A stretch of DNA of 64,000 nucleotides, taken from assembly GCA_003024785.1 (NCBI GenBank), contig PUQB01000255.1:156143-220142 (forward strand), read 5' to 3'. Shown one piece after another: positions 19,541-60,003 of this stretch (the first letter of the stretch is position 1; each line of letters starts with the position of its first letter). Source of the DNA: Selaginella tamariscina. Lineage: Eukaryota; Streptophyta; Lycopodiopsida; Selaginellales; Selaginellaceae. The notes beneath the pieces are model-generated. The model was not told the DNA's origin and ran no database searches. It worked only from the letters and a program-made list of their open reading frames with translations. The position numbers were made by a program, and so were the translations under genes.

Positions 19541-19566
19541 ATGCCCACTTTAGTTACAACATGCAT
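19541..19566 (-). repeat. Right terminal inverted repeat of A2
   Basis: Starts ATGCCCACTTTAGTTACAAC and ends ATGCAT. Reverse complement of 6125-6150 apart from two transitions. Confidence 0.9.
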
Positions 19567-35100: not shown

Positions 35101-35211
35101 GGGTCTCGGCGGAAAAGGAGGCTCCGGCTCAAGAGGCTTCATTTATTCTAGTATATTCGCGGATATTCTTAGGGTTATTCTAGCATATTCTAGAATATTC
35201 TCAAGAATATT

Positions 35212-37873
35212 CTAGAATATATAAGTTTTTTTAATATGCCGACTGATTTGTCCTTCTGACCTCATCTTCGTTTCCTTGAGCACAGGCCAAACCGTTGGTG
35301 GTGTTGGATTCGTGACCGAAGAATTTTGCCGTTTGGCCGTGTGAAACCTCTGAATCTTTTGGGCAGAACCACACATCTGTTGTACATACTCCTCATTCCC
35401 CAAGGCATCAATGTACATTCGTTTTCCATAGAATCCTGGTGCTGGCACTCTGCTTGGATAACCGATTGGTTTTCCACACAGAGCAGTTCCTTCCTGATTC
35501 ATCCCCAAACACTTAACCTTACTGGATGCTCCGATTCGTCTGATGGCCCACTCTGTTTGAGCAATCTCTCTCTCCGAAACCTCTTCGAACCTTAACCTCT
35601 TTCTCCTGTTGTTTTGGACCACCCGCTCTGTGTACTCTACATCATGTCTGTGTGAACGTCGAGCATCAGACTGTTCTGTTCCTGTGACTGTTCTCCTAAC
35701 AGTTTGCACTCGAACGTTAGTGGTACTCGTGAACTCCGGGCTGGTCAAGTGTTCCTCGCCTTCCACCAGATTGATAATTGTTGATGGAGATACACTTTTC
35801 CCCTCAGAGAGTTTGCGTTGCACTCGTTTCAACAGAGTTTCCTTCGAAGGCCCTGACCCTGTATACCTCCCTTCTATTGCCGCTTTCACCTTCGCACTCT
35901 GCATAACTGCATCGGTGAGGTCTAACATTGTCGCCTCCAGCAGTGGTACTCTTTTGGCCAATCTTGCTCTTCTTGCTCTCGCGTGAATCACTTCAGCATT
36001 GTTTGTAGTTGGAACGCTCGCGAGTCCTTCTGTCATGTCTCCCAGTTCCGCCATGGAGATGTGGTCCTCATGCCTGATCCACCAAGACAGCCATGTCTTC
36101 AAAGCTCGAATGTTTGACGCTCGTCCTTCCCAAAAAGACTCGAGAATTGCCAGTTGTTCTTTCTTAGATTGTTCATTCAGTGCTGCAGGCCAGGCACGAG
36201 CAAGCTTCATGTGTTCTTCGCGATGTTCTTCTGCGATCCATTTCTTTGTCACCTGACGCACGGATTGCATAAAGTGAAACAGACAGCTTCTTTCCCTCCC
36301 TTTCATCTTTGCTCCGTTGTTGAATACTTGGCGCAAGGCTATCCATATCGCTCCAGCCTCATCCGACATGAAACCAGCAAAGTTGACATTCTCCAAACCC
36401 TGCTTCTTACAAACCTCTAGCATTGTGTTCAAGAACTTCAGCACTGCAACATTATCTTCGCGGCACATATCTGCGTAAGCTATAGTCACCATGGATCTGA
36501 CACTGCAAGAGAGCGTTAGATAACGAAGATTAGAAAGTGTTATGAAGAGTTTTACAACTTACAATGGGTCATAAAGGTGTATTCCAATTGTCGCCCAGTC
36601 TGGTATGCGGTGCGTGTGGTCCAGAACAACCCATTGATCATGAAGGTCTCCTCCACTTTGACACCTTCTGATGTACTCAACTCCTGAACCCGGTCCCTCA
36701 ACTGTCATTTTGAAGATCAGAGGCTGCTCCTCAGCACCATGCAGTTCCATCCCTGGAACATGTATGACGTGAATGAAAGGTATTGGCAGCTTTGTCTTCA
36801 GCTCCAGAAGACCCTCGTAACCCTCTCTAAAGTGTGTCTCCTTCTGTCTTGATTGTGTAATCCAGTCCCGAGTCCTAAAGAAAAGGTCACGTCAGTGTGT
36901 AGAGATCTAAAGAAAAATACCTTCGATGGTTTGTTAGAGGTTCAAGTTTTGAGAGTAAACCAGTGTACGAGACTTCTCCTTCTTCCTTGAAAAGTTCTTC
37001 AAAGATGAGCTCACGCGCGGCTTGAAACTCAATCACTCGTTGATTGGTTCGCGGACTGCTCTTTACCACGTTGCTGACACTAGATCTGGCTCGCTGAACG
37101 TTTGAAGCTGACACTGAGGGGCTGACTGGATGCTGATGAACACCTCTGTGAATGAACAACCTTGTAAAAGAAATGTCGTCTGGCAGAATGTAGTACACAT
37201 AAGCCGGACAAGTGTGCACCAGCAATGGCTCCTCTCCACAATGCTTACATTTCATGCCTATTACTTTGCCTGTCTCAGTTGTCTTTGCCTTCTCCACAGC
37301 ACCCTTGAAGTGACATTCATTTGCTTTCTTCTCAAAAGCCAAGTAGGGGCAGGTAGGATTGATGCATTGAGATGTCCGACACATGAACTTCGACTGACTC
37401 GCGCCGGAACATGCCAGTGTGTTGTGCTCGGGTGTGTCCAATGGTAGCAGCCATCCTTGCGATTCATCCCCGAGTACTTCTCTGTGCTTTCTGTCTTAGG
37501 GGGAAGTTCGTAAATGACATTTCCATTGTATATCTGCGGTAGTTCAGAGACTCGTTTAGATCCTTCCCTATCCTACATTTGTCTGCTCTTACACCAGCAT
37601 GGATTCCTCACGCTCCTCTGTCCGCAACCTGAACAACGGGCCCTTTGCCGGGCACAATGTGTAAAAGACAAACTGGTTTGATGCATTGCCTTCTGGTAAC
37701 AACTCCACATCTTCTCCAGAACTCGCAGAAACTGACATCAATTGAACCACATGTATACTGAACCAACAAGGAATGTTGAAAGCAATGTGAAGATCATGTT
37801 CAAACACAAAAGCATTTCCATCTTCATCGACTGGGAAATCTTTGTCAATGCCTTCATAGGTAACTCTGGCCAT
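35212..37873 (-). pseudogene. B1 Mutator-like (MULE) transposase
   Basis: Minus strand, start at 37873 (MARVTYEGIDKDFPVDEDG). Order of parts: N-terminal domain; a zinc-binding region with C, C..C and C..C..E pairs (CINPTCPYLAFEKK, MKCKHCGEEPLL) like the WRKY/FLYWCH-type fingers of MULEs; then WVVLDHTHRIPDW (first catalytic Asp), a 60-nt intron at 36562-36503, FAGFMSDEAGAIWIALRQVF (second acidic block), CLFHFMQSV and TTNNAEVIHARARR (the TNN.E signature). The last exon (36492-35212) is fully open for 426 residues. Unlike B3 it ends without the SWIM finger: sequence jumps from KETKMRSE into the terminal region. A short deletion near 37560-37600 breaks the N-terminal frame. Role: cut-and-paste transposition of element B. 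Confidence 0.85.
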
Positions 37874-38099
37874 GACAACGCAAGGAGAAAGCTCGGTGGT
37901 TTAGGAAAGCAAAGCAAAAGATTAAACACACTTTCCCTTACCAAAAAAAATTACAATCGTTAATAATAAACGTGAATACACGTTTGTATATAATTAATTC
38001 TATGCTGCCCAGCTCACAGTGTTCTTAATGATGTCCTCTCTAGTATCACCGATTTAATTTAATTTCTACCTTTTATGATTTGAAATATCTTCACATTTA

Positions 38100-38240
38100 C
38101 CAATTATTCACATATTTTAAAATAAACCCTAAATATTAATGTCACATTTATTCCGTAGGGTTCACTGTTTTCATTGCGGCTAGGGTTTTTTGGTAGATAG
38201 GGTTTACTGTTTCCATTGCGGCTAGGGTTCTTTCAATCTC
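38100..38240 (+). promoter_or_regulatory. Telo-box cluster between the divergent B1 genes
   Basis: AAACCCTAAAT, GTAGGGTTCAC and two near-identical TTGCGGCTAGGGTTTT / TTGCGGCTAGGGTTCT units. The same cluster occurs in B2 (47285-47395) and B3 (55015-55090). Telo-boxes are common in plant promoters and leaders; here they mark the probable start zone of the ParB-MTase transcript. Confidence 0.5.
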
Positions 38241-38329
38241 AGATCTGTTTCCACTGCGGCAGATCCGAGGGTTTCTTCAATCTCAGATCTCAGAGTTACG
38301 GTTTCCACTGCGGCGCCATCCATTTCGAC

Positions 38330-39188
38330 TCGATTCGTGCAGCCCCAAGTATATCAATGGAGATTTTGTGCCGATTTAGATTGTCGGCACCATCCTGCTC
38401 AGCCGGCGGCCACAAGGTATGTGTAATTTCTGTATTTTATGATTTGCGGCTCAAAGTATTTCTTTTTCAGAGATATAGGGTCTTCTTATTTGTGCCGACT
38501 GAGAGCGACGGCACCATCCTGGTTCAGTCGGCAAACACAAGGTATCGTCGATTTATTTATTTTTTTCCTTGCGGCTCAAGTATCGTGTCACAATGTTTTT
38601 TTTCAGAGTTAATGGGTCTTTCCATTTGTGCCGACTGAGAGTGACGGCACCATCCTGGTTCAGTCGGCAGCCACAAGGTATTTTCGATTTGTTATTTTTT
38701 GCTTTCTGGCTCAAGTATTCGTATCACAATTGTTTTTTTTCAGAGTTAATGTGTCTTCCCATTTGTGCCGACTGAGAGTGACGGCACCATCCTTTCAGTC
38801 GGCAGCCACAAGGTATTTTGAATTTGTTTATTTTTTGCTTTGCGGCTCAAGTATCCGTATACAATGTTTTTTTTTCAGAGTTATGTGTCTTCCCATTTGT
38901 GCCGACTGAGAGTGACGGCACCATCCTTCTTCAGTCGGCAGCCACAAGGTATTTTGAATTAGTTTTTTTTTTCTTTGCGTCTCAAGTATTTCTTTTAAAC
39001 AGTTAATGGGTCTTCCCATTTGTGCCGTCTGAGAGGGACGGCACCATCCTATCTCAGTCGGCACCATTATCTCTTCAGTGCCGTCTGACAAGGGTCGGCA
39101 CAAACTATCTCAGTCGGCAGGATTTGTTCTTCTACATCTCTGACTGAGAGGGTCGGCACCATCTAGCTTGAGTCGGCAGCCACAAGGT
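38330..39188 (+). repeat. Tandem mini-exon array in the B1 ParB-MTase leader
   Basis: Period about 136 bp. Units at 38471-38541, 38607-38677, 38744-38812 and 38879-38948 are each 69-71 nt, flanked by a pyrimidine tract plus CAG/AG acceptor and a CACAAG/GTATT-type donor. Each core holds GCCGACTGA and its complement TCAGTCGGC around GACGGCACCATCC. A related first unit ends at 38416 and a compound last unit ends with donor CACAAG/GTTAGT at 39188. The spacers of about 66 nt have the size and ends of introns in this gene. Confidence 0.85.
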
Positions 39189-39256
39189 TAGTCATCTTTG
39201 TTTGTTTTTTTATTTTGTCTCCTAATCAATTGACTTGTGTGTTTAGAGTTTACAAA

Positions 39257-42200
39257 ATGGTGAGAGCTTCAAAACGTCTACTAGAGACTGCGCCTGATGA
39301 AGAGCCACGGGAAGAGAAGAGGATATCGAAGCAGAAGCGAGGCAAGAGAGGAGAACCATCTAATGTAGCAAAGGAGGATCCTCCAGTGACTCAGTCTGGA
39401 GTAGTACAGTTGAGCAAGAATCCACCAACAATCACAGATTTCCCGGAGAGCTCGTCGCAGTTGCCTCCTTCATCCGCTGAGGTTGCAGTCCTGAACGAGC
39501 AAGTGCAGATGACAGAGGCAGTTGAAGCTAGCGAGGACGACTTGGAGGAGGCAGTCAGCAAAAAGAGAGGCCGCGGGAAAGCTGATTCAAAAGGCAAGAA
39601 GGCGAAGAGCGATAAGGAGCCGAAGGAGTTATACAGCATACCGGCGAGCCTGCATTTGGAGAGCTCAGCAAACCTGCTCGACAAAATTACTATCAAGGGA
39701 CTTGGTGATCCTCCTGATGTGCCCATCTGTAGAATACATTCGAACGAGGTGGTTCGACGAGTGAACCCAGGGGACTTGGACAGGCTGGTGTCATCGTTGA
39801 AGAAGGCTGGTTATCTACGCAACACGGCCTTGTTCATTCTGTCCATCGGAGATCGACTCACTGCTGAGGAGCTATCGGAGCTGTCGAAGGACACGATTCA
39901 GTACGAGCAGCACCGGTCTTTCGAGCAAGCTCTTACTCAGCCGGAGTACAAACAGTGGGCTTCAAGGCTCTCAAACAGGAAGTTTAGCTGCTGGGACGGG
40001 AACCATAGGCTACAGGCTTTGCAGAAGCTGTACCGAGAGGATGCAGAGGACAACCAGCGATGGGCTATTCGCGTTCGATCGAGTTTCATCTCCACGGAGA
40101 ACCTCGACATTCTTCAACTGGTTTCGATGTTCCAATCGATTAACATGTGAGTATTTTCTTTTCTTTTTGTTAAGAGTTTAGACTTACAGTTTCGTTGAAC
40201 AGATCTTCAGCAACATCTGTGGAAACAACGCTACCACATATTCTCCTCGCTGTAAAGGCGGTCTGCACTAGTACAGAAGGAACTCAGAAAATCCTCGAGT
40301 CACTCACGGAGGTTGATCGTCTTGAGGTGCGGAAGTGGAAGGAGAGTTCAGCAGGAAAGACGGCTTGGCATCCTCTTCCGAACCTGATCTGCGCAAAGAT
40401 CCTTTTCAAGGTAACCTCCGATTTAATTTATAGGAAAGAATTTTTAACTTATTCTATGTGCAGAACGAGATCGACGATGATCTCGACAGAGCAGTCACCA
40501 GTGCTAAGGGCAATTCACAGGTTGAGGTGAACCTGAAGCAGCTAGTGTACAAGAAGCATGACAAGCGTATGCACAAGTTCCTCTCCATCATAGACCCAGA
40601 CTTGGGGGAGGAGTGGTTCCAGAAGGTGACAAACATCTCTCATAAGCAGTGTCGCTGGATGGGCATTGAGAAGCTGTATGCGATGTCAAGGCGAAGATTC
40701 CAAACATGCTGCGACTCCGATACCTGAACAAGCTCACCCGTCTCGAATCCAAGGCAGAACAACAGACACTTGGGCTACCGGGCATGCAGGACAAAGAGTG
40801 GATCAAGTGGTTCACCTTGGACTTATATTGGAAGGCTGTGCGCGAGGAAGCCATTCAGATCCTTAAGGGGTTGCGAGAGGATGGTGAAGAAGTTGGAACG
40901 GATGTCGACTTCATGAGCTGGTTTGACGAGATGAGAACTCGGAGCAAGTGCCTGGTCTTTCAGCCCTTCCATGACTGCATACGGTTCACTTATTCGATGG
41001 AGCCGAATGAGTTTCTGGAGCGTGAGGAATCTGCGCGTCGGATGATATGGAGGTAAGCTTTCAATCCAGCATTGCTACTGTCTGACTTTGTGTTACAGGT
41101 TCATACTGGCGAAGCAAATGACACCGTCCCATACGATGAAGCTGTGGACAGATCATACAAGCGAGCCTCACATGTGGTCGAAGAGCAGAGGAGCTCTAAC
41201 ACCGTTCGAACGGGAGCATGTTCCATTCTGGCTCGACTGTCCGTCGCAACAGCCACCAGCTTGGGAGAGCTCACTATTCGACATGCACGGCAATGATCTA
41301 CCAGCGATTGTTTGGGAGCCAGAAGAAGTAGAGGCTATCAAGAAGAGCAAGATGAAGAAGACGGTGCGGAAGACAACTACACCTGCAAAGGGATCGGGAG
41401 CGGGACCAAGCTCTTCTACAGCACCTCCGCCGGCATTCGACTTTACAATCAATGAGGTACAGCCACTTGTAGCTAGTTTGGACATCAAGGACGACCTGAT
41501 GACCTTCATCCCGACCCTGGCTGCATCCCGTGGATCCTACGACCTAGCTGTGTGCGACATGGAGGAGATGAGCAGGTCTTTCTTCGAGCCGGGTGCTTCC
41601 CAGACAGAGGTGTACACCAAGCTCCGACAACAGGTTGACAGACTACATACGGTTGAGTCACAAACGGTGTTCCAGGAAGTGGTAGGTGAATACGGCTTCA
41701 ACCTCATCATCCTCGACTTGCCCAATGAGCTTGTATATGGAGGTGCTAGCATCAACAAGGACATTGTGCAGCTAGATCCGGTGAAGTTTGAGGAGGCCTT
41801 GCAGTTCAGTGGAATGCACTTGGCAGCGAGTGGTTTCATGGTCGTCTTCGCGAGTTCTCCTTCTGTTTCGGCGGTGATTCAGGCGGCTGCAGTAATCAAC
41901 TTGGAGGTTGCAGGGACTTACAGCGTCTACCGTGCACGAGGCTGGGGATACCGTGACAAAATTAAGGTAAGCTAGCTATTCAAGTTCAAGTTTAACTTGG
42001 TCTATGTGGCAGGATAACTTGTTAGTTCTCTTGGTGCTGCAAAGCTCTGAGAAGAAGTCGAAGAGGCCAAACCCTCTGGCGTTGACGAACACGATCCTCG
42101 TCGACACTGCCGACCGTTATCAGGAGGCTTGGTAAGGAAGTACTTTGCTATGTTTATCCTAATGGAAGTTTGTGCAGGATTATGATTCAACCGAAGAGTG

Positions 42201-42475
42201 TTCGACTCATGCAGCTTTTGATCGAGCGTCTCAGTAGACCTGGCGACCTAGTCTGGGATATTGGTTCCGGAACCGGGTCATCGTTGTTAGCTGCCGTCGA
42301 GCTCGGAAGGAATATTATAGGAACCGAGAAGAGTTTCGAACTCTCTAGGTTGGCAACAAACAAGCTTGCAGAGAACATTAGACCAGAAGAGTTACCTACT
42401 CAAACACCTCCACGTCCAAGCGTAACTGGTGGTTCGAGAACTGCAGCTTTACTTAAGATGAAGAAGAAACTTTAG
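39257..42475 (+). CDS. B1 ParB-like / beta-class DNA methyltransferase-like protein (about 990 aa)
   Basis: Six exons join in phase: 39257-40146, 40203-40410, 40464-41052, 41099-41966, 42013-42131, 42178-42475, with introns of 46-56 nt. The ATG 39257 follows acceptor TGTTTAG. N terminus: two basic nuclear-signal-like stretches (KQKRGKRGE; KKRGRGKADSKGKKAK). Residues about 150-260 form a ParB/sulfiredoxin-like domain: VPICRIHSNEVVRRVNPGDL and CWDGNHRLQALQKL (the DGxHRxxAL box). The C-terminal third is a beta-class amino-MTase fold: FNLIILDLPNELVYGG at motif IV, then QPKSVRLMQLLIERL and GDLVWDIGSGTGSSLLAAVE with GRNIIGTEK (motifs X, I, II). Motif IV reads DLPN instead of DPPY/W. One base appears missing near 40687 compared with B3; otherwise it is open. 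Likely nuclear DNA binding, with methyl transfer uncertain. Confidence 0.82.
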
Positions 42476-42541
42476 CTAATGTATATTGAGTAATAAATTA
42501 AGCTAATATAAAAAAAATAAGAAATACAACAGTTTTAATAG

Positions 42542-42665
42542 AATTCTTTTTTGCCGACTGAGGCCAATACTGCCGACCAGAAAGAATATTCCAAAATATT
42601 CTAGAATATTCTTGAATATTCGAGCCCAGGCCTCCTGGGCCCCAAGCCTCCAAAATGGCGACACT
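42542..42665 (-). repeat. Right terminal region of B1
   Basis: TTTGCCGACTGAGGCCAATA at the inner edge, a run of GAATATTC/TTCTAGAA palindromes, then GCCTCC..AAAATGGCGACACT at the outer end. The same order occurs at 50521-50620 (B2) and 59045-59130 (B3). Confidence 0.85.
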
Positions 42666-42673
42666 CCCCAAGG

Positions 42674-43640: not shown

Positions 43641-43919
43641 GCTTCATCGGGTCTCGGCGAAAAGGAGGCTCCCGCTCGTGAGGCTTAATAATATTCTAGT
43701 ATATTCACGGATATTCTAGGTTTATTTAGCATATTCTAGAATATTCTCAAGAATATTTTTTTGATATAAGGTTTTTAATATGCCTGACTGGCTTAATATT
43801 TACCGACCAACAAATAAATCATTTAAATTTTTTTTAAAAATTTGATTACTTTATAAAAAAGTTCAATAAGTTTACAAATAAGCATTTTTATGTATACTAT
43901 TTATCCTTGTAGCACCGGA

Positions 43920-46900
43920 CTCTGCTGCAATTCATTAGCAATGGTGGACCTCCATCTCACTGAGCGATCGGCTTTGTAGAAAGTATATGACATCCGGGTT
44001 CAAGCCAAGCACACGACTATAGACGAAGTACATGTGTACACATGGGCTCCAACTTTTGCTCTTCTGGAAAGTAGAAACAACTGCATGTAGGATAAGTGCT
44101 GATAGTCACCTTTGCAGAGTCATTTCCTGTCGACACAACGAAAGCCTCCTTCCGTCCTCTAACTGTCACTTCAACATTTCTCACTTGACCTAAAAATGTC
44201 TTGGCCTTGTGAAAATTCTTCTCTATTCCTTAACATTTTTGTTGGAGTTCGGACCATGTGTCCTTCGAAAGGTGAAATTGTTGTAGATCCAGCTCCACGT
44301 GGTGGCGATGGTGTTTTATCTTTTGTCCCTCATCTACTCTTCTTGCCGTCCCCTGTAAACCTTCTAGAACAAAGCCTGCATCCTGTAATTCTTTGACCTC
44401 CTCACTTGTCAGCTTCGTTTCCTTGAGCACAGGCCAAACCGTTGGTGGTGTTGGAATTCTTGACTAAAGAATTTTGCCATTTGGCCACATGAAACACCCT
44501 GAATCTTTTGGGCAGAACCACATCATTTGTTGTACATACTCCTCATTCCCCAAGGCATCACTGTACATTCGTTTTCCGTAGAATCCTAGTGCTGGCACTC
44601 TACTTGGATAACCGATTGGTTTTTCCACATAAAGCAATTCCTTCCTGATTTCATCCCCAACACTTAACCTTACTGGATGCTTTGATTCGTCTAATGACCC
44701 ACACTGTTTCTGCAATCTCTCTCCAAAACCTCTTCAAACCTTAACCTCTTTCTCCTATTGTTTTGGACCACCCGCTCTGTGTCATCATGTCTGTGTGAAC
44801 TTCGAGCATTAGATTGTTCTGTTCTTGTGACTGTTCTCTTGACAGTTTGCACTCAAACGTTAGTGGTACTCGTGAACTCCGGGCTGGTCAAGTGTTCCTC
44901 GTCTTCCACTAGATTGATAATTGTTGATGGAGATACACTTTTCCCCTCAGAGAGTTTGCATTGCACTCGTTTCAACAGAGTTCCCTTCGAAGGACCTGAC
45001 CTGTATACCTCCCTTCTATTGCCGCTTTCACCTTCGCACTCTGCAGAACTGCATCGGTTAGGTCTAACATTGTCGCCTCCAATAGTGGTACTCTTTTGGC
45101 CAATCTTGCTCTTCTTGCTCTCGCGTGAATCACTTCAACATTGTTTTGTAGTTGGAACGCTCGCGAGTCCTTCTTCTGTCATGTCTCCCAATTCCACCAT
45201 GGAGATGTGGTTCTCATGTCTGATCCACCAAGACAGCCATGTCTTTAAAGCACGAATGTTTGACGCTCATCCTTCCCAAAAGACTCTAGAATTGCTAGTT
45301 GTTCTTTTTTAGATTGTTCATTCAGTGCTGCAGGCCAGGTACGAGCAAGCTTCATGTGTTCTTCGCGGTGTTTCTTCTGAGATCCATTTCTTTGTCACTT
45401 GACGCACGGATTGCATAAAGTGAAATAGACAGCTTCTTTCCCTTCCTTTCATCTTTGCTCCGTTATTGAATACTTGGCGCAAGGCTATCCATATCACTCC
45501 AGCCTCATCCGATATGAAACCAACAAAGTTTACATTCTCTAAACCCTGTTTTCTTACAAACCTCTAGCATTATGTTCAAGAACTTCAGCACTGCAACATT
45601 ATCTTTGCGTGAGCTATAGTGACCATGGATCTGACACTGTAAGAGAGCATTAGATAACAAAGATTAGAAAGTGTTATGAAGAGTTATACAACTTACAATG
45701 GTCATAAAGGTGTATTCCAATTGTCGCCCAGTCTGGTATAACAGTGTGTGTGGTCCAGAACAACCCATTGATCATGAAGGTCTCCTCCACTTTGACACCT
45801 TTTGATGTAGTCAACTTCCTGAACCCGGTCCCTCAACTGCCATTTTGAAAGATCAAAGGCTGCTCCTCAACACCATGCAGTTCCATCCCTGGAACATGTA
45901 TGACGGAATGAAAGGTATTGGCAACTTTGTCTTCAGCTCCAGAAGACCCTCGTAACCCTCTCTAAAGTGTGTCTCCTTCTGTCTTGATTGTGTAATCCAG
46001 TCCCGAGTCCTAAAGAAAAGGTCACGTTAGTGTGCCGAGATCTAAAGAAAAATACCTTCGATGGTTTGTAAGAGGTTCAAGTTTTGAGTAAACCAGTGTA
46101 CGAGACTTCTCCTCCTTCCTTGAAAAGTTCTTTAAAGATGAGTTCACGTGCAGCTTGAAACTCAATCACTCATTGATTGGTTCGCGGACTGCTCTTTACC
46201 ACATTGCTGACACTAGATCTGGCACGCTGAACGTTTGAAGCTGACACTGAGGTGCTAACTGGATGCTGATGAACACCTATGTGAATGAACAACCTTGTAA
46301 AAGAAATGTCGTCTAGCAGAATGTAGTACACATAAGTCGGAAAAGTGTGCACTAGTAATGGCTCCTCTCCACAATGCTTACATTTCATGCCTTTTACTTT
46401 GCCTGACTTAGTTGTCTTCGCCTTCTCCATAGCACCCTTGAAGTGACATTCATTTGCTTTCTTCTCAAAAGCCAAGTAGGGGCAGGTAGGATTGATGCAT
46501 TTGAGATGTCCGACACATGAACTTTGATTGACTCGCACCGGAACATGCCAGTGTGTTGTGCTCGGGTTTGTCCAATGGTAGCATCCATCCTTCCGATTCA
46601 TCCCCAAGTACTTCTCTATGCTTTCTTTCTTTGGAGGAAGTTCGTAAATGACATTTCCATTGTATATCTGCGGTAGTTGAGAGACTCGTTTAACTTCATA
46701 CGAACCAATGAGATCCTTCCCTATCCTACATTTGTCTGCTCTTAGAAGACACACCAGCATGGATTCCTCACTCTCCTTTGTCCACAACCTGAACAACGGG
46801 CCCTTTGCCGGGCACAATGTGTAAAAGACAAACTGTTTAATGCATTGCCTTCTGGTAACAACTCCACATCTTCTCCAAAACTCGCAGAAACTGACATCAA

Positions 46901-47032
46901 TTGAACCACATATATATTGAACCAACAAGGAATGTTGAAAGCAAAGTGAAGATCATGTTCAAGCACAAAAGCATTTTCATCTTCATCAACTGGAAAATCT
47001 TTGTCAATGCCTTCATAGGTAACTCTGGCCAT
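43920..47032 (-). pseudogene. B2 MULE transposase, decayed
   Basis: Start at 47032 (MARVTYEGIDKDFPVDEDE). The zinc-finger exon is intact here (46928-46170), including the piece missing from B1: ADKCRIGKDLIGSYEVKRV, then GMNRKDGCYHW, SSCVGHLKCINPTCPYL and MKCKHCGEEPLLVHT. The catalytic exons are present but frame-shifted in several places. A degraded SWIM region remains at 43920-44200. Useful mainly to show the intact N-terminal layout. Confidence 0.8.
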
Positions 47033-47459: not shown

Positions 47460-50450
47460 GGAAAGCGAAGTATGAAGTAGTACCAATTGAGCAGGAGCAG
47501 CCTCCATCAACCATCAGAGATTTCCCAGAGAGCTCGTCGTAGTTGCCTCCTTCATCTACTGAGGTTGTAGTCTTGAACGAGCAAGTGCAGATGACAGAGG
47601 CAGTTGAAGCTCTTTCTTCTTTTAGTGAGGACGACTTGGAGGAGGTAGTCAGCAAAAAGAGAGGCCGTGGGAAAGCTGATCCAAAAGGCAAGAAGGTGAA
47701 GAGCGATAAGTAGCCAAGGAGTTATACAGCATATCGGCCAGCCTGCATTTGGAGAGCTTAGTGAACCTGCTCGACAAAATTACTATCAAGGGACTTGGTG
47801 ATCCTCCTGATGTGCCAATCTATAGAATGCATTCGAACGAGGTGGTTCGACGAGTGAACCCAGGGGACTTGGACAGCTGGTGTCATCGTTGAAGAAGGCT
47901 GGTTATCTACGCAACACGGCCTTGTTCATTCTATCCATCGGAGATCCACTCACTGCTGAGGAGCTATCGGAGCTGTCGAAGGACACGGTTCAATACGAGC
48001 AGCACCGGTCTTTCGAGCAAGCTCTTACTCAGCCAGAGTACAAATAGTGGGCTTCAGGCTTGTCAAACCAGAAGTTCAGCTATTGGGACGGGAACCATAG
48101 GCTACAGGCTTTGCAGAAGCTCTACCGGGAGATGTAGAGGACAACCAACGATGGGCTATTTGTGTTCGATCGAGTTTTATCTCCATAAGAACCTCGACAA
48201 TCTTCAACTGGTTTCGATGTTCCAATCGATAAACATGTGAGTATTTTCTTTCTTTTCGTTAAGAGTCTAGACTTACAGTTTCAATGAACAGATCTTCAGC
48301 AACATCTGTGGAAACAACACTACCACATATTCTCCTTGCTATAAAGGCGGTCTGCACTAGTACTAAAGGAACTCAAAAATCCTTGAGTCACTCACGGAGG
48401 TTGATCGTCTTGAGGTGCGAAGTGGAAGGAGAGTGCAACAGGAAAGACGGCTTGGCATCCTCTTCCAAACCTGATCTGCACAAAGATCCTTTTCAAGGTA
48501 ACCTTCGGTTTGATTGATAGGAAAGAAGTTTTTAACTTATTCTATGAGATCGACGATGATCTCACAAGCAGTCACCAGTGCTAAAGGCAATCCACAGCTT
48601 GAATTGAACCTGAAGCAGCTAGTGTACAAGAAGCATGACAAGCGTATGCACAAGTTCCTCTCTATCATAGACCCAGAGTTGGGGGAGGAGTGGTTCCAGA
48701 AGGTGACGAACATCTCTCATAAGTAGTGTCGTTGGATGGGCATTGGAAGCTGTACACGATGTCAAAGGCAAGATTTCAAACATGCTGTGACTCCGATACT
48801 TGAACAAGCTCACTCGTCTTGAATCCAAGGCAGAACAACAGACACTTGGGCTACTAGGGACAAAGAGTGGATCAAGTGGTTCACCTTGGACTTGTATTGG
48901 AAGGCTGTGCGCGAGGAAGCCATTCAGATCCTTAAGGGACTACGAGAGGATGGTGAAGAAGTTGGAAGGATGTCGACTTCATGAGCTGGTTTGACGAGAT
49001 GTGAACTCGAAGCAAGTGCTGGTCTTTCAGCCCTTCCATGACTGCATACGATTCACTTATTCGATGGAGCCGAATGAGTTTCTGGAGTGTGAGGAGTCTG
49101 CGCGTCGATGATATGGAGTAAGCTTTCATTCAACATTGCTACTACTAATTTGTGTTATAGGTTCATACTAGCGAAGAAAATGGCTCCATCTCAACATGAA
49201 GCTGTGGATAGATCATACAAGCGAGCCTCACATGTGGTCGAAGAGCAGAGGAGCTCTAACACCATTCGAACCGAGATGTTCCATTTGGCTCGACTGTCCG
49301 TCGCAGCAGCCACCAACTTGGGAGAGCTCACTATTCAAGTGCATGCCAATGATCTTCTAGCGATTGTTTGGGAGCCGGACGAAGTAGAGGCTATCAAGAA
49401 GAGCAAGATGAAGAAGACGGTGCGGAAGACAACTACACCTGCAAAGGGATCGGGAGCGGGACCAAGCTCTTCTACAGCACCTCCGCCGGCATCGACTTTA
49501 CAATCAATGAGGTACAGCCACTTGTAGCTAGTTTGGACATCAAGGACGACCTGATGACCTTCATCCCGACCCTGACTGCATCCCGTGGATCCTACGACCT
49601 GGTGTGTGCGATATGGAGGAGATGAGCAGGTCTTTCTTCGAGCCAGGTGTTTCCCAGACAGAGGTGTACACCAAGCTCCAACAACAGTTGACAAACTACA
49701 TACGATTGAGTCACAAACGGTGTTCCAGGAAGTGGCAGGTGAATACGGCTTCAACCTCATCATCTTCGACTTGCCCAATGAGCTTGTATATGGAGGTGCT
49801 AGCATCAACAAGGACATTGTGCAGCTAGATCCAGTGAAGTTTGAGGAGGCCTTGCAGTTCAATGGAATGCACTTGGCAGCGAGTGGTTTCATGGTCGTCT
49901 TTGAGACTTCTCCTTCTGTTTTGGCGGTGATTCAGGTGGCTGCGGTAATCTAGCTATTTATGTTCAAGTTTAACTTGGTCTATGTGGCAGGATAACTTGT
50001 TGGTTCTCTTGGTGTTGCAAAGCTCTGAGAAGAAGTCGAAGAAGCCAAACCTCTGGCATTGACGAACACGATCCTCGTCGATACTACCGACCATTTTAGG
50101 AGGCTTGGTAAGGAAGTACTTTCCTTTGTCTATCCTAATGGAAGTTTGTACAGGATGATGATTCAACCGAAGAGTGTTCGACTCATGCAGCTTTTGATCA
50201 AGCGTCTTAGTAGACTTGGCGACCTAGTCTGGGATATTGGTTCCAGAACTGGATCATCGTTGTTAGTTACCATCGAGCTTGAAAGGAATATTATAGGAAC
50301 TGAGAAGAGTTTTGAACTCTCTAGGTTGGCAACAAACAAGCTCGCAGAGAACATTGACCAGAGGAAATACCTACTCAGACACCTCCACGTCCAAGCCTAG
50401 CTGGTGGTTCGAGAACTGCAGCTTTACTTAAGATGAAGAAGAAACTTTAG
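47460..50450 (+). pseudogene. B2 ParB-MTase-like gene, decayed
   Basis: Aligned with 39400-42475 of B1 without its first about 50 codons. Stops and indels occur throughout the ParB half, for example TAG within the block for residues about 130-135 (47710). The methyltransferase half is better preserved: FNLIIFDLPNELVYGG, QPKSVRLMQLLIKRL, GDLVWDIGSRTGSSLL (one Gly of motif I changed to Arg). The terminal stop is at 50448-50450. Confidence 0.8.
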
Positions 50451-50628
50451 CTAATGTGTATTGAGTAATAAATTAAAGCTAATATAAAAAAGAATAAGGT
50501 AGAAATACAACGGGTTTTTTTTTTGCCGACTGAGGCCAATATTGCTAACCAGAAAGAATATTCTAAAATATTCTAGAATATTCTAGATTCGAGCCCAAGC
50601 CTCCAAAATGGTGGCACTCCGCTTCATC

Positions 50629-51379: not shown

Positions 51380-51672
51380 ATGGCTTTCAAGCAGCATTTT
51401 GTTCGGGTCTCGGCGCTCCGGCTCAGGAGGCTTTGGAATATTCTAGTATATTCGCAGATATTCTGAGTATGTTCTAGCATATTTTAGAATATTCTCTAGA
51501 ATATTTTTTGATATAAGTGTTTTTAATATGCCGAATGGCTTAATATTTGCCGACCAACAAATAAATCATAAAGTTTTAGAATTTTTTTGAATACTTTATA
51601 AAAAAGTTCAATAAGTTACTATTCAAACAAAGCATTTTTATGTATACCATTTATCCTTGTAGCACTAGTGGG

Positions 51673-54600
51673 TCATGAACTCTGTTTGCAATTCACCAGT
51701 AAATGGTGGACCTCCGTCTCACTAAGCGAGTGCCTTTGTAGAAAGTATGTGACGTCCGAGTTCAAACCAAGCACACGGCTGTAGACAAAGTACATGTGTA
51801 CACATGGGCTCCAACTTTTGCTCTTTTGAAAGGTAGAACAACTGCATGTAAGATAAGTACTGATAGTCACCTTTGCAGAGTCATTTCCTGCTGACACAAT
51901 GAAAGCCTCCTTTTGTCCTCTAACTGTCACTTCAAATTCTCACTCGACCTAAAAATGTCTTGGCCTTGTGGAAATTCTTCTATTGTTCCTTAGACATTTT
52001 TGTTGGAGTCTAGACCATGCGTCCTTCGAAAGGTGGAATTGTTGTAGATCCAGCTCCACGTGGTGGCGATGGTGTTTTGTCCTTCTAACTCTCATCTACT
52101 CTTCCTGCCGTCCCCTGTAAACCTTCCAGAACAAAGCCTGCATCTTGTAGTTGTCTGACCTCCTAACTTGTCAGCTTCGTTTCCTTGAGCACAGGCCAAA
52201 CCGTTGGTGGTGTTGGAATTCTTGACTAAAGAATTTTGCCATTTGGTCGCATGAAACACCCTGAATTTCTTGGGCAGAACCACATCATCTGTTGTACATA
52301 CTCCTCATTCCCCAAGGCATCAATGTACATTATTTTTTCGTAGAATCCTGGTGTTGGCACTCTGCTTGGATAACCGATTGGTTTTCCACACAGAGCAATT
52401 CCTTCCTGATTCATCCCCAAACACTTAACCTTACTAGATGCTCTAATTTATCTGATGGCCCACTCTGTTTGTGCAATCTCTCTCTCCAAAACCTTAACCT
52501 CTTTCCTCTTGTTGTTTTGGACCACCTGCTCACATCATGTATGTGTGAACGTCGAGCATCAGACTGTTTTGTTCCTGTGACTGTTCTTTTGACAGTTTGC
52601 ACTCAAACGTTAGTGGTACTCGTGAACTCCGAGCTGGTCAAGTGTTCCTCGTCTTCCACCAGATTGATAATTGTTGATGGAGATACACTTTTCCCCTCAA
52701 AGAGTTTTCATTGCACTCGTTTCAACAGAGTTTTCTTTTGAAGGACCTGACCTTGTATACCTCCCTTCTATTGCCACTTTCACCTTTGCACTCTGCAAAA
52801 CTGCATCGGTGAGGTCTAACATTGTCGCCTCCAGTAGTGGTACTCTTTTTGCCAATCTTGCTCTTCTTGCTCTCACGTGAATCACTTCAGCATTGTTTGT
52901 AGTTGGAATGCCTCGTGAGTCCTTCTTCTATCATGTCTCCCAGTTCCACCATGAAGATGTGGTCCGCATGCCTGATCTACCAAGATAGCCATGTCTTCAA
53001 AGCACGAATGTTTAATGCTCATCCTTCCCAAAAAGACTCGAGAATTGTTAGTTGTTCTTTTTAGATTGTTCATTCAGTGCTGCAGGCCAGGCATGAGCAA
53101 GCTTCATGTGTTCTTTGCGGTGTTCTTTTGCAATCCATTTTTTTGTCACCTGACGCACGGATTGCATAAAGTGAAATAGACAGCTTCTTTCCCTTCCTTT
53201 CATCTTTGCTCCGTTATTGAATACTTGGCACAAAGCTATCCATATGCTCTAGCCTCATCCGACATGAAACCACAAAGTTTACATTCTCCAAACCCTGTTT
53301 CTTACAAACCTTTAGCATTGTGTTCAAGAACTTCAGTACTGCAACATTTCTTTGCAGCACATATATGCGTAAGCTATAGTGACCATGGATCTGACACTGT
53401 AAAGAGCATTAGATAACAAAGATTAGAAAGTGTTATGAAGAGTTATACAACTTACAATGGGTCATAAAGGTGTATTCCAATTGTCGCCCAGTCTGGTATA
53501 CAGTGTGTGTGGTCCAAAACAACCCATTGATCATGAAGGTCTCCTCCACTTTGACACCTTCTAATGTAGTCAACTCCTGAACCCGGTCCCTCAAATGCCA
53601 TTTTGAAGATCAAAGGCTGCTCCTCAGCACCATGCAGTTCCATCTCTGGAACATGTATGACGTGAATGAAAGTATTGGCAACTTTGTCTTCAGCTCCAGA
53701 AGACCCTCGTAACCCTCTCTAAAGTGTGTCTCCTTCTGTCTTGATTGTGTAATCCAGTCCCGAGTCCTAAAGAAAAGGTCACGTTAGTGTGCCAAGATCT
53801 AAAGAAAAATACCTTCCATGGTTTGTAAGAGGTTCAAGTTTTGAGAGTAAACCAGTGTACGAGACTTTTCCTCCTTCCTTGAAAAGTTCTTCAAAGATGA
53901 GTTCACGTGCAGCTTGAAACTCAATCACTCATTGATTGGTTCGTAGACTGCTCTTTACCACATTGCTGACACTAGATCTGGCACGCTGAACATTTGAAGC
54001 TGACACTGAGGGGCTGACTGGATGCTGATGAACACCTATGTGAATGAACAACCTTGTAAAAGAAATGTTGTCTGGCAAAATGTAGTACACATAAGCCGAA
54101 CAAGTGTGCACTAGCAATGGCTCCTCTTCACAATGCTTACATTTCATGCCTTTACTTTGCCTGACTCAGTTGTCTTTGCCTTCTCCACAGCACCCTTGAA
54201 GTGACATTCATTTACTTTCTTCTCAAAAGCCAAGTAGGGGCAGGTAGCATTGATGCATTTGAGATGTCCAACACATGAACTTTGATTGACTCGCGCCGGA
54301 ACATGCCAGTGTGTTGTGCTCGGTCTGTCCAATGGTAGCAGCCATCCTTGCGATTCATCCCAAGTACTTCTCTATGCTTTCTTTCTTTGGAGGAAGTTCG
54401 TAAATGACATTTCCATTGTATATCCGGTAGTTGAGAGACTCGTTTAACTTCATACGAACCAATGAGATCCTTCCCTATCCTACATTTGTCTGCTCTTAGA
54501 AGACACACCAGCATGGATTCCTCACGCTCCTTTGTCCGCAACCTGAACAATGGGCCCTTTGCCGGGCACAATGTGTAAAAGACAAACTAGTTTGATGCAT

Positions 54601-54786
54601 TGCCTTCTGGTACACAACTCCACATCTTCTCTAAAACTCGCAGAAACTGACATCAATTGAACCACATGTATATTGAACCAACAAGGAATGTTGAAAGCAA
54701 AGTGAAGATCATGTTCAAACACAAAAGCATTTCATCTTCATCGACTGGGAAATCTTTGTCAATGCTTCATAGGTAACTCTGGCCAT
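51673..54786 (-). pseudogene. B3 MULE transposase with SWIM finger
   Basis: Start at 54786. Same layout as B1 (zinc finger, WVVLDHTHCIPDW, SWIM at the C end). The SWIM motif is clear at 51.7-51.9 kb: CSCSTFQKSKSWSPCVHMYF, the CxC...CxH zinc ligands seen at the C terminus of many MULE transposases, followed by about 45 residues to the stop at 51673. Frame breaks in the central exons (52.2-53.4 kb) make this copy non-coding as it stands. Confidence 0.83.
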
Positions 54787-55199
54787 GACAACGCAAGGAG
54801 AAAGCTCGGTGGTTTAGAAAGTAAAGCAAAAGATTAAACACACTCTCGTTCGCCAAAAAAATTATAATCGTTGATAATAAACAAACACACTTTTGATATA
54901 ATTAATTCTATCGTCTTAATGCTGTCCTCTTTAGTATCACAGATGTAATTTAATTATTACCTTTTATGATATGAAATATCTTCACCTTTACCAATTATTC
55001 ACATATTTTAATATTAACCCTAAATTTAATGCCGGCTAGGGTTTTTTGGTAAATAGGGTTTACTGTTTCCATTGCAGCTAGGGTTTTTTAATCTCAGATC
55101 TGATATCTGAAATCTCCTCCAAGGGGCCTGAGAGGAGCGGCGCCATCCATTTCGAGTTGATTCGTGTAGCTCTCAAGTAAACCATTGAGATTTCTGAGT

Positions 55200-55780
55200 A
55201 TCCATATCACAATGTGTTTTTTTTTTATGTTAGAGTTAAAGGGTCTTCCCATTTGTGCCGTCTGAGAGAGATGGCACCATCCTGGCTCAGTCGGTAGCCA
55301 CAAGGTCTGTTCAATTTCTTTTTTTTTTAATTTATGGCTCAAGTATCCATATCACAATGTTTTTTTTTCTATGCCAGAGTTAAAGGGTTTTCCCATTTGT
55401 GCCATCTAAGAGAGACGACACCATTTTGGCTTAATCGGCAGCCATAAGGTTTGTTCAATTTCTTTTTCTTTAATTTTGACTCAAGTATCCATATCACAAT
55501 TGTTTTTTTTTATGCCAGAGTTAAAGGGTCTTCCCATTTGTGCTGTCTAAGAGGACGGCACATCCTAGCTCAGTCGACATGCTTCTTACATCATCTCGTC
55601 TATGCTGTCTGAGAGGGTCAGCACCAACCAGTCTCAGTCGTAGGTTTTGCTCATCTACTTTTCTGTGCCAACTGAGAGGGTCGGCACCATCTAGCCTGAG
55701 TCGGCAACCACAATAGTCATCTTTGGTTTTTGTTTTTCCTTTTGTCTCCAAATCAATTGACTTGTGTGTTTGCTTTCCAG
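55200..55780 (+). repeat. Mini-exon array in the B3 leader (three or more units)
   Basis: Units beginning AGAGTTAAAGGGTCTTCCC at about 55230, 55376 and 55517, period about 145 bp, each with the GTGCCGTCTGAGAGAGA...GGCTCAGTCGG core and CACAAGGT or CATAAGGT donor. Compared with B1 the stems are more degenerate and the unit differs slightly (GTTAAAGGG), so the array has evolved as a block within each copy. Confidence 0.75.
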
Positions 55781-55790
55781 AGTTTGCAAA

Positions 55791-58700
55791 ATGGTGAGAG
55801 CTTCAAAAAGTCTACAAGAGACTATGCTTGATGAAGAGCCACGGAAAGAGGAGGATATCGAAGCACAAGCGAGGAAAGAGAGGAGAACCATCTAATGTAG
55901 CAAAGAAGGATCCTCCAGTGACTCAGTCTCAAGTAGTACCAGTTGAGCAAGGAGCAGCCTCCATCAACCATCACAGATTTCCCGGAGAGCTCGTCGCAGT
56001 TGCCTCCTTCATCCGCTGAGGTTGCAGTCCTGAACGAGCAAGTGCAGATGACAGAGGCAGTTGAAGCTAGGAGGACGACTTGGAGGAGGCAGTCAGCAAA
56101 AAGAGAGGCCGGGAAAGCTGATCCAAAAGGCAAGAAGGCGAAGAGCGATAAGGAGCCGAAGGAGTTATACAGCATACCGGCTAGCCTGCATTTGGAAGCT
56201 AGCGAACCTGCTCGACAAAATTACTATCAAGGGACTTGGTGATCCTCCTGATGTGCCATCTGTAGAATGCATTCGAACGAGGTGGTTCGACGAGTGAACC
56301 CAGGGGACTTGGACATGCTGGTGTCATCGTTGAAGAAGGCTGGTTATCTACGCAACACGGCCTTGTTCATTCTGTCCATCGGAGATCCACTCACTGCTGA
56401 GGAGCTATCGGAGCTGTCGAAGGACACGGTTCAGTACGAGCAGCACGGTCTTTCGAGCAAGCTCTTACTCAGCCGGAGTACAAACAGTGGGCTTCGAGGC
56501 TCTCAAACAGAAGTTCAGCTGCTGGGACGGGAACCATAGGCTACAGGCTTTGCAGAAGCTCTACCGGGAGGATGCAGAGGACAACCACGATGGGCTATTG
56601 TGTTCGATCGAGTTTCATCTCCACGAGAACCTCGACAATCTTCAACTGGTTTCGATGTTCCAATCGATAAACATGTGAGTATTTTCTTTTCTTTTTGTTA
56701 AGATTCTAGACTTACAGTTTCAATGAACAGATCTTCAGCAACATCTGTGGAAACAACACTACCACATATTCTCCTCGCTGTAAAGGCGGTCTGCACTAGT
56801 ACGAAGGAACTCAGAAAATCCTCGAGTCACTCACGGAGGTTGATCGTCTTGAGGTGCGGAAGTGGAAGGAGAGTCAACAGGAAAGACGGCTTGGCATCCT
56901 CTTCCGAACCTGATCTGCAAAGATCTTTTCAAGGTAACCTTGATTTGATTGATAGGAAAGAAGTTTTTAACTTATTCTATGTGCAGAACGAGATCGACGA
57001 TGATCTCGACAGAGCAGTCACCAGTGCTAAGGCAATCCACAGCTTGAACTGAACCTGAAGCAGCTAGTGTACAAGAAGCATGACAAGCGTATGCACAAGT
57101 TCCTCTCTATCATAGACCCAGAGTTGGGGGAGGAGTGGTTCCAGAAGGTGACGAACATCTCTCATAAGCAGTTCGCTGGATGGGCATTGAGAAGCTGTAC
57201 GCGATGTCAAAGGCGAAGATTTCAAACATGCTGCGACTCCGATACTTGAACAAGCTCACTCGTCTCGAATCCAAGGCAGAACAACAGACACTTGGGCTAC
57301 CAGGCATGCAGGACAAAGAGTGGATCAAGTGGTTCACCTTGGACTTATATTGGAAGGCTGTGCGGAGGAAGCCATTCAGATCCTTAAGGGTTGCGAGAGG
57401 ATGGTGAAGAAGTTGGAACGGATGTCGACTTCATGAGCTGGTTTGACGAGATGCGAACTCGGAGCAAGTGCCTGGTCTTTCAGCCCTTCCATGACTGCAT
57501 ACGGTTCACTTATTCGATGGAGCCGAATGAGTTTCTGGAGCGTGAGGAGTCTGCGCGTCGGATGATATGGAGGTAAGCTTTCATTCCAGCATTGCTACTC
57601 TAACTTTGTGTTACAGGTTCATACTGGCGAAGAAAATGGCACCGTCTCAGACGATGAAGCTGTGGACAGATCATACAAGCGAGCCTCACATGTGGTCGAA
57701 GAGCAGAGGAGCTCTAACACCGTTCGAACGGGAGCATGTTCCATTTGGCTCGACTGTCCGTCGCACAGCCACCAGCTTGGGAGAGCTACTTCGACGTGCA
57801 TGCCAATGATCTTCCAGCGATTGTTTGGGAGCCGGACGAAGTAGAGGCTATCAAGAAGAGCAAGATGAAGAAGACGGTGCGGAAGACAACTACACCTGCA
57901 AAGGGATCGGGAGGGGACCAAGCTCTTCTACAGCACCTCCGCCGGCAATCGACTTTACATCAATGAGGTGCAGCCACTTGTAGCTGGTTTGGACATCAAG
58001 GACGACCTGATGACCTTCATCCCGACACTGGCTGCATCCCGTGGATCCTACGACCTGGCTGTGTGCGATATGGAGGAGATGAGCAGGTCTTTCTTCGAGC
58101 CGGGTGCTTCCCAGACAGAGGTGTACACCAAGCTCCGACAACAGGTTGACAAACTACATACGGCTGAGTCACAAACTGTTCCAGGAAGTGGTAGGTGAAT
58201 ACGGCTTCAACCTCATCATCCTCGACTTGCCCAATGAGCTTGTATATGGAGGTGCTAGCATCAACAAGGACATTGTGCAGCTAGATCCGGTGAAGTTTGA
58301 GGAGGCCTTGCAGTTCAGTGGAATGCACTTGGCAGCGAGTGGTTTCATGGTCGTCTTGCGAGTTCTCCTTCTGTTTCGGCTGATTCAGGCGGCTGCGGTA
58401 ATCAACTTGGAGGTTGCAGGGACTTACAGCGTCTACCGTGCACGAGGCTGGGGATACCGTGACAAAATTAAGGTAAGCTAGCTATTCAGTTCAAGTTTAA
58501 CTTGGTCTATGTGGCAGGATAACTTGTTGGTTCTCTTGGTGCTGCAAAGCTCTGAGAAGAAGTCGAAGAGGCCAAACCCTCTGGCGTTGACGAACACGAT
58601 CCTCGTCGATACTGCCGACCATTTTCAGGAGGCTTGGTAAGGAAGTACTTTGCTTTGTTTATCCTAATGGAAGTTTGTGCAGGATGATGATTCAACCGAA

Positions 58701-58979
58701 GAGTGTTCGACTCATGCAGCTTTTGATCGAGCGTCTCAGTAGACCTGGCGACCTAGTCTGGGATATTGGTTCCGGAACCGGATCATCGTTGTTAGCTGCC
58801 GTCGAGCTCGGAAGGAATATTATAGGAACCGAGAAGAGTTTCGAACTCTCTAGGTTGGCAACAAACAAGCTTGCAGAGAACATTAGACCAGAGGAAATAC
58901 CTACTCAGACACCTCCACGTCCAAGCCTACTGGTGGTTCGAGAACTGCAGCTTTACTTAAGATGAAGAAGAAACTTTAG
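55791..58979 (+). pseudogene. B3 ParB-MTase-like gene
   Basis: ATG 55791 after acceptor TTTCCAG. Aligned with B1 along its whole length, same intron positions, stop TAG at 58977-58979. Some segments are better than B1 (for example AMSKAKISNMLRLRYLNKL continuous across the site where B1 lost a base), but there are about ten small indels elsewhere, so it is probably not functional. DGNHRLQALQKL, LDLPNELVYGG, QPKSVRLMQLLIERL and DIGSGTGSSLLAAVE are all retained unchanged from B1, including the DLPN form of motif IV. Confidence 0.83.
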
Positions 58980-60003
58980 CTAATGTGTATTGAGTAATAA
59001 TATAAAAAAGAATAAGGTAGAAATACAAGTTTTACTAGAAAAAATTTGCCGACTGAGGCCAATACTACCGACCGAAAGAATATTCTAGAATATTTGAGCC
59101 CGGCCCCAAGACTCCAGAATGGCGGCACTCTTTTGTTCTCATGCTTCTCATTGCAACAGCTTGTTCTTTGTTAGTTCAAGGTGGTTCATTCCACAGCTAC
59201 GCTTCGACGTGCCCCACAGTCGAGAGTGTGATCAAAAGCACAGTAGAAGTAGCAACAACAAAAGACCCAATGATCCCAGTCGGTCTTCTACATTTGCATT
59301 TCCATGATTGCTTTGTTGAGGTAATGAGCTTCTTGTCCATATTCTCTTGTGGATTTCTAAGCTTGTTTGATCTTCGATGTAACTCGATGTTATCACCAGG
59401 GGTGTGATGGATCAATCTTGCTGGAATCTACTCCCACTAATGGCAGAGATGTAGAGAGATTTGCTCAAGGAAATAACAATTCTGTTCGAGGCTTCGAAGC
59501 CATTGCAGAAGCTAAAACTAAGCTGGAAGCAATGTGTCCGGGAGTTGCTGACATACTCGCAATAGCAGCCAGAGACTCTTTTGTCTTCGTAAGTTGTTTG
59601 CTTAACCTTGACTTATGGTTTCATCTTTTGTGCGTTTCTTGTTTTATTTCAATCAATATGGAGGTTTGTCATACACGGTCCCAACTAGTCGTTTTGATGG
59701 GCGAGTCTCGAGCAGAACAACTGCAGATGCCAAGCCGAGTCTATTCTTCACATATGCACAGCTCAAGAGCAACTTTGCTAAGAAAGGACTATCCATTCCC
59801 CACGACCTTGTTGTGCTCTCATGTACCATTTTTCATGAGCTCTTGGTTCTTGCTTACAAATGCTTTAGTAAACTCTCTTGCTTAGAATCCAGGTCCATGT
59901 TTGCACAGTCGATGATCAACATGGGAAACATTGGTAGAAAACAAGAGAAATTGGGGCACGGCGAAATTCGAGCGCAGGTCAACGAGCTTGACCAAGATTC
60001 ATG

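Follow-up and report, generated by a model that had tools for sequence, protein, structure and literature searches.

A stretch of 64,000 nucleotides of the Selaginella tamariscina genome (contig PUQB01000255.1, positions 156,143 to 220,142; hereafter the window) raises the question of why a DNA transposon would carry, next to its transposase gene, a second gene for a protein with ParB-like and DNA methyltransferase-like features. Three related insertions in the window, denoted B1, B2 and B3, each consist of a minus-strand transposase gene and a divergent plus-strand second gene. The analysis described here shows that this two-gene unit is mobile, and comparison of two diverged families of such elements reveals conservation of both genes and of a short motif, CAGTCGGCA, that is repeated in a tandem array between them. 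The reading that we favor, and to which we give an even chance of being correct, is that these are two-gene DNA transposons whose accessory protein recognizes the motif array of its own element, in a self-recognition or anti-silencing role.

Mobility of the two-gene unit

The left end GGGTCTCGGCG opens all three insertions (positions 35101, 43649 and 51405), the right ends are related (...CTCCAxAATGGxGxCACTC), and each copy is flanked by its own exact 8-bp target-site duplication (Table 1), in full agreement with the original prediction, including its coordinates. The copies are 90-93% identical to each other in long common blocks and 83-86% identical over the first 120-150 bp. BLASTN comparison of the four flanking stretches of approximately 0.8-1 kb (the right flank of B1 and the left flank of B2 form one interval) detects no mutual similarity, and the duplications differ, so that segmental duplication was rejected as the origin of the three copies. 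A chance origin of the duplications of B1-B3 was rejected as well, given the near-zero control with crossed flanks described below. Thus, in the material examined, we encountered neither of the two outcomes that would have undermined the prediction, namely accidental duplications or a host gene copied by segmental duplication. All three window copies are defective. In B1, exon 3 of the second gene is frameshifted and some 0.6 kb is missing close to the left end, a segment that holds the transposase C-terminus in other copies; the second genes of B2 and B3 contain stops and indels.

Across the genome assembly (300.7 Mb in 1391 contigs), the exact 11-bp left end is found 311 times (163 + 148), compared with 39 matches (20 + 19) for the reversed motif. 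All eight 3-kb loci retrieved at left ends match the left end of the element, and six encode the transposase within reach. Twenty copies were fetched at 10 kb (the first 21 of 100 listed places, minus the very first); the left-end element sequence is present in every one of them, and the second gene in 14, at 99% of its length or more in 12 (interrupted in L019) and partially in two. For the 14 elements with both ends, that is, B1-B3 and 11 of the 20 fetched copies, the 8-bp duplications are exact in seven cases, with one mismatch in two, two mismatches in two, three in two and five in one; without B1-B3, there are four exact and two one-mismatch duplications among 11. The duplication of L014 seems to be exact if shifted by two bases (by eye). 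Two pairs of copies share an 8-mer in the left flank (L017 and L023, AATACGAG; L009 and L016, CACACGTG), and some copies may thus represent local duplications or alternative assemblies instead of separate insertions. Crossing the left and right flanks between elements yields no exact duplication and a single one-mismatch case in 182 pairings, and therefore the duplications are not due to chance. The predicted mobile unit that spans both the transposase and the second gene is thus confirmed by many insertions with 8-bp duplications.

A second, diverged family

Among the 95 transposase matches listed, the one with the lowest identity, fragments aside (69%, with an open frame of 630 amino acids), leads to the locus L029/L030 and then to L031. 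These are insertions of a second family, the transposase of which is 68% identical to that of the B family. Both contain a divergent second gene (tblastn pieces 35-65% identical, some of them spanning introns). Between the families, the second protein shows 60% identity, with pN (the proportion of nonsynonymous differences) of 0.26 and a saturated pS (the synonymous counterpart) of 0.82 over 807 codon pairs, namely those that pass a local-identity filter, which inflates the identity. The two insertions have exact 8-bp duplications, TTTCGAAG, which was found by eye and occurs twice in 10.6 kb, and ATAATTTT, which was chosen from a list of candidate pairs; both are supported by the alignment of the insertions, which stops within 2-5 bases of the duplications. 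A search with the second-family transposase yields more than 30 stop-free matches at 98% identity to the query among the 70 scored of 2725 candidates, suggesting a recent burst of this family. The alignments show that both genes are conserved across the two diverged families.

The accessory protein

The second gene was aligned for 14 copies, 11 fetched ones and B1-B3, with the partial or interrupted genes of L015, L019 and L021 excluded. The exon layout is the same in all 14, although decayed copies no longer have every splice site. One of these genes, that of L020, is intact; it encodes a protein of 992 amino acids, has GT-AG at all five introns and belongs to an element that is also flanked by exact duplications. 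The other 13 contain indels or stops, part of which may be assembly errors. The ratio of nonsynonymous to synonymous substitution rates (dN/dS) is between 0.12 and 0.54, mostly near 0.3, in the 28 pairs computed of 91 possible (codons with gaps or stops dropped), and these low values persist despite the neutral decay that follows insertion; the aligned copies show purifying selection on the accessory protein.

The methyltransferase-like character assigned to this protein originally is borne out by its C-terminus, which matches the N6/N4 DNA methylase family PF01555 above the cut-off of 26.7 bits (35.7 bits for the whole protein and 38.6 bits for the open reading frame of exon 6), over the last quarter of the profile only. 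The best match of the C-terminus to DNA methyltransferases of the PHROG collection has an E-value of 7.5e-12, and matches to PDB sequences are weak (MboIIA, E 0.0021). The S-adenosylmethionine-binding motif I reads WDIGSGTG and is kept in both families, as is the region that precedes motif IV, which contains VPICRI..NE.VRRVNP.DL..L..S.KKA together with WDGNHRL. We take the VPICRI..NE and WDGNHRL region to resemble the motifs of ParB and sulfiredoxin, and the ParB name for the second protein rests on this resemblance. One further match, to a PHROG of unknown function (E 0.0076), involves a low-complexity part of the protein and appears to be due to chance.

No relatives of the second protein were detected at an E-value of 0.001 among 5.8 billion proteins (a word-limited search, in one case scoring the 8000 best word-sharing candidates), and none in viral contigs searched with two pieces of the protein. 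Weak matches are found in 265 phage records (best listed E-value 3e-4), and the 20 listed cover only residues 837-986, the methylase end. Within those searches, an origin of this gene in prokaryotes or viruses is not supported.

The motif array between the two genes

The central array of B1 sits between the two divergent genes. The array units are 136-144 bp long in the B family and 39-40 bp long, built on CCCAGTCGGCATGCCGACTGGG, in the second family, where the length of the array varies, with 4.2 units in one copy and 7.8 in another. Plus-strand BLASTN of the second-family copy C against L020 yields no alignment within the two arrays. Nevertheless, when one member per family is counted, AGTCGGCA leads the 8-mers of L020 with 19 occurrences and shares first place in C with the overlapping CAGTCGGC, at 13 occurrences. 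The TGCCGAC/GTCGGCA motif occurs 18 times in B1, 23 times in L020, 14 times in one second-family copy and 22 times in another, whereas shuffled controls average 0.5-0.6 occurrences and reach 3-4 at most; it is found 11-28 times in 12 of 14 copies of the B family and once in the 40 kb of the window outside the elements. These comparisons show a motif that is conserved while the surrounding repeat units are unrelated between the families. Such an element-specific motif, located in noncoding tandem repeats that are dynamic, is characteristic of the targets of VANC proteins. The 16-bp palindrome AGTCGGCATGCCGACT of the second family occurs 1142 times genome-wide (reversed control, 0). The first 50 listed places are all in runs of at least three and form eight arrays, two of which (C69 and C90) are located 2.0 kb from a second-family transposase match.

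As judged by eye, the units of the B central array (38365-39190) have a polyT-CAG before and AAG|GTAT after a GC-richer core. The array may thus be readable as a series of noncoding exons that precede the second gene. Inspection by eye led to the rejection of in-frame protein repeats, since the frame of the unit that continues into the gene contains a stop.

The transposase

The transposase gene consists of three exons on the minus strand. Three relatives of the encoded protein were found among 5789 candidates (E-values from 5e-60 to 1e-33), one of them from the fern Adiantum nelumboides, in keeping with a plant genome, as are the GT-AG introns of the second gene. The putative DDE residues were assigned by eye, without profile confirmation, in an alignment of four sequences: the first D (DHVHR) is present in three, the second D (FMxDEA) and the CxxH motif in all four, and the E (TTNxAE or SINFSE) in three, the remaining sequences being too short or diverged. 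A SWIM finger (PF04434) near the C-terminus of three transposase sequences scores 15.1-17.5 bits, below the cut-off of 19.6. Pfam scans of transposase pieces from the two families and of the relatives P0001-P0003 list no MULE (Mutator-like element) transposase domain (PF10551), and no KDZ family is listed for the transposase either.

Target duplications of MULEs span about 8-11 bp, a range that includes the 8-bp duplications observed here (exact in 7 of 14 elements), and duplications of 8 bp also fit other superfamilies, for example, Zisupton. The terminal inverted repeats are short and imperfect, approximately 20-25 bp, and MULEs without terminal inverted repeats have been described (PMC6446971). 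The MULE label of the original prediction is plausible, in that the DDE-like residues, the sub-threshold SWIM finger and the length of the duplication fit a MULE-like transposase; the assignment is provisional because Pfam offers neither a MULE nor a KDZ match for this protein.

A possible self-recognition system

Taken together with the known behavior of VANC proteins, these features suggest the following scheme. A MULE-like transposase of the DDE/SWIM type would mobilize an element in which the divergent gene encodes an accessory protein of about 990 amino acids, with the ParB-like motif region and the C-terminal N6/N4-methylase-like domain. The tandem array of the motif CAGTCGGCA between both genes is the candidate target. 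The accessory protein would bind this array, perhaps as a dimer, as suggested by the AGTCGGCATGCCGACT palindromes of the second family, and the bound protein would distinguish copies of the element from host DNA and keep them transcribable. Such a role would be comparable to that of VANC proteins for VANDAL elements, with or without DNA methylation.

Several observations weigh against this scheme. With respect to the composition of the element, 6 of the 20 fetched copies lack the second gene within 10 kb and two more contain it only in part. Three elements with both ends (L017, L023 and L028) have poor duplications, with 3-5 mismatches. Of the 54 second-gene matches listed on contigs that are wholly covered by the left-end list (one fragment on C477 excluded), only 29 are preceded by an exact left end at a distance of 4.6-5.7 kb, the probability of a left end at that distance by chance being about 0.004 for each. 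Similarly, only 32 of the 95 transposase matches are accompanied, among the matches listed, by a divergent second-gene match within 8 kb; of the other 63, three have a second-gene match within 15 kb that is arranged differently, and for 60 none is listed. Both lists are the scored part of 2315 and 1771 candidates, which makes 32 a lower bound. Finally, across 14 copies the transposase half of the element shows only weak concordance with the half that holds the second gene (Mantel r 0.40, a value attained in 151 of 2000 permutations), in a comparison where deletions displace the compared segments; given this weak concordance, the copies seem to recombine.

With respect to the protein, DLPN occupies the position of motif IV, as assigned by eye, in every one of the 14 B genes aligned and in the two copies of the second family, and the standard catalytic motif is (D/N/S)PP(Y/F/W). 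Catalysis by the second protein is doubtful for this reason. Searches of Pfam, PHROGs, NCBIfam and PDB sequences with the ParB-like region yield nothing significant, only weak matches that look like chance; PF02195, the ParB N-terminal domain, has no match in the protein scans or in the whole genome, although the control matches in 10 of 14 known genomes; and the AlphaFold model, built on four near-identical sequences, is uninformative (predicted local distance difference test score, pLDDT, 37). Accordingly, of the ParB fold proposed originally, the motif resemblance remains, and the fold itself finds no corroboration in family profiles, PDB sequences or the model.

With respect to the motif, the decayed B2 and B3 retain few intact copies (1 and 5, respectively), and in both families copies are also present near both ends of the element, so that the transposase could be the motif binder. 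On this alternative, the motif would serve as a binding site for the transposase, and the accessory protein would be a cofactor of transposition, as mudrB may be in maize, and not an anti-silencing factor. MULE second open reading frames with integration or DNA-binding roles are indeed known (PMC6446971), and the subterminal motif copies beside the central array are compatible with such a role. Most of the motif copies, however, are located centrally between the divergent genes, in arrays of variable copy number, a layout that is closer to that of VANC targets than to end-binding sites, and we consider the cofactor explanation, the main alternative to our reading, possible but rather unlikely.

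A somewhat more doubtful proposal concerns the mode of self-recognition. The ParB-like, pseudo-methyltransferase protein might act in a centromere-like manner, binding arrays of CAGTCGGCA half-sites and loading onto the elements, which it would shield or mark against silencing by the host, independently of VANC.

The accessory protein could instead be an active DNA methyltransferase that writes N6-methyladenine or N4-methylcytosine on the element. The match to N6/N4 methylases above the cut-off and the WDIGSGTG motif I in both families would fit such an activity. The same activity is proposed for algal proteins by the authors of PMC12477816. The invariant DLPN makes it less likely here. In METTL14, which belongs to the wider methylase class and lacks activity, EPPL replaces DPPW. 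We regard the explanation by an active methyltransferase as improbable.

A further explanation, in which a host gene travels as a passenger after capture or segmental duplication, is highly improbable: MULEs tend to take up host gene fragments (PMC6446971), but the second gene is found at one position in 14 of the 20 fetched copies, keeps its exon layout throughout the 14 genes aligned (apart from splice sites lost by decay), is under constraint and recurs, about 60% identical, in the second family, and the duplications differ between insertions.

Other features of the window

Arrays of GAATATTCTAGAATATTC-like words with a period of approximately 10 bp are observed in subterminal positions at both ends of elements of both families (B1-B3, L020, L029/L030 and L031). 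We take them to match the GAAnnTTC pattern of heat-shock elements, a likeness that would suggest stress-responsive elements, although the arrays are located 3' of both genes. Elsewhere in the window, there is a duplication of about 6 kb (70-5929 and 13742-19566, 90-96% identical), and tandem repeats of about 89 bp at 13643-14099 and 70-443 contain GGGCCTAGGCG-like words, the likeness of which to the left end is due to chance only.

Table 1. Coordinates of the elements and their parts in the window
Feature	Positions	Strand	Description
B1 left target-site duplication	35093..35100		CCCCAAGG
B1 element	35101..42665	+	7565 bp, two genes, ~0.6 kb deleted near left end
B1 left subterminal array	35144..35220		10-bp array TATTCTAGAA, GAAnnTTC-type
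Transposase exon 3	35212..36502	-	D2, CxxH, TTNNAE; C-terminal SWIM part missing in B1
Transposase exon 2	36563..36874	-	first Asp, DHTHR
Transposase exon 1 region	36887..37900	-	frame broken in B1, open in fetched copy L013
B1 central tandem array	38463..38990		136-bp unit, 3.9 copies, with AGTCGGCA/TGCCGACT motifs
Second gene exon 1	39257..40146	+	basic/low-complexity N-terminus and ParB-like motif region
Second gene exon 2	40203..40410	+	
Second gene exon 3	40464..41052	+	frameshifted in B1
Second gene exon 4	41099..41966	+	motif IV position, DLPN
Second gene exon 5	42013..42131	+	
Second gene exon 6	42178..42475	+	putative SAM-binding half of N6/N4 methylase domain
B1 right subterminal motif pair	42552..42578	+	TGCCGACTGAGGCCAATACTGCCGACC
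B1 right subterminal array	42583..42621		10-bp array AGAATATTCT
B1 right target-site duplication	42666..42673		CCCCAAGG
B2 left duplication	43641..43648		GCTTCATC
B2 element	43649..50620	+	6972 bp, decayed
B2 right duplication	50621..50628		GCTTCATC
B3 left duplication	51397..51404		TTTTGTTC
B3 element	51405..59130	+	7726 bp, decayed
B3 central array	55197..55576		144-bp unit, 2.7 copies
B3 right duplication	59131..59138		TTTTGTTC

Relation to known systems

The original prediction considered a transposon-borne protein with ParB-like and methyltransferase parts to be unprecedented, and this view has to be abandoned because such accessory genes have been published for Sola1-1_Ec32 of Ectocarpus and for similar transposons of green and red algae (PMC12477816, which cites Iyer 2011 and Petroll 2025). 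As described there, the algal element is a DNA transposon with a protein of approximately 1000-1100 amino acids that combines ParB-like and N4/N6 methyltransferase domains and is encoded on the strand opposite to the transposase, as in the elements analyzed here. The likeness is one of layout and domain description, with the ParB part compared by motif only (WDGNHRL and VPICRI..NE). In contrast to Sola1-1_Ec32, the present elements have a MULE-like transposase, 8-bp duplications, a plant host, DLPN at motif IV and a documented conserved motif array.

The closest functional parallel is VANDAL21 of Arabidopsis, a MULE with an accessory gene, the product of which, VANC21, binds the motif YAGTATTAY, accumulated as dynamic noncoding tandem repeats that lose methylation (PMC5735166). 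The Selaginella elements likewise combine a MULE-like transposase and an accessory gene with a short motif that is specific to the element and lies in such repeats. The difference is that the protein described here is methyltransferase-like, and the word methyltransferase is absent from the main text of PMC5735166. The parallel is one of layout, with hypomethylation being a feature of VANDAL21, and on the Selaginella side it is drawn from the sequence.

Other transposons are described as carriers of chromatin-modifying or DNA-modifying enzymes, in particular, fungal DNA transposons with TET/JBP and oomycete MuDR elements with SET (PMC12730594), and retrotransposons with DNMT (PMC5890265). These enzymes belong to other families and, with the exception of the oomycete MuDR, the carriers belong to other superfamilies. 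DIRS retrotransposons with a Dam-like adenine methyltransferase (PMC5890265) share an adenine-methylase-like domain with the elements described here but are retrotransposons with a different architecture. In the open-licence literature, we found no report of a ParB-methyltransferase accessory protein in a MULE or in a land plant, and the word ParB is absent from the main texts of PMC6446971, PMC12730594 and PMC13317346. What appears to be new is thus the host group and, probably, the transposon superfamily, for which we found no report, in addition to the motif as a candidate target.

The function of the algal accessory proteins has so far been guessed, and the Selaginella elements offer many copies, two families, a protein under selection and a conserved motif. 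The motif is an obvious candidate target and turns the vague guess of a protein that binds and modifies its own element into a direct question of binding. If the reading favored here is true, these elements would represent a second, independent case of sequence-specific self-recognition by transposons, beside VANC.

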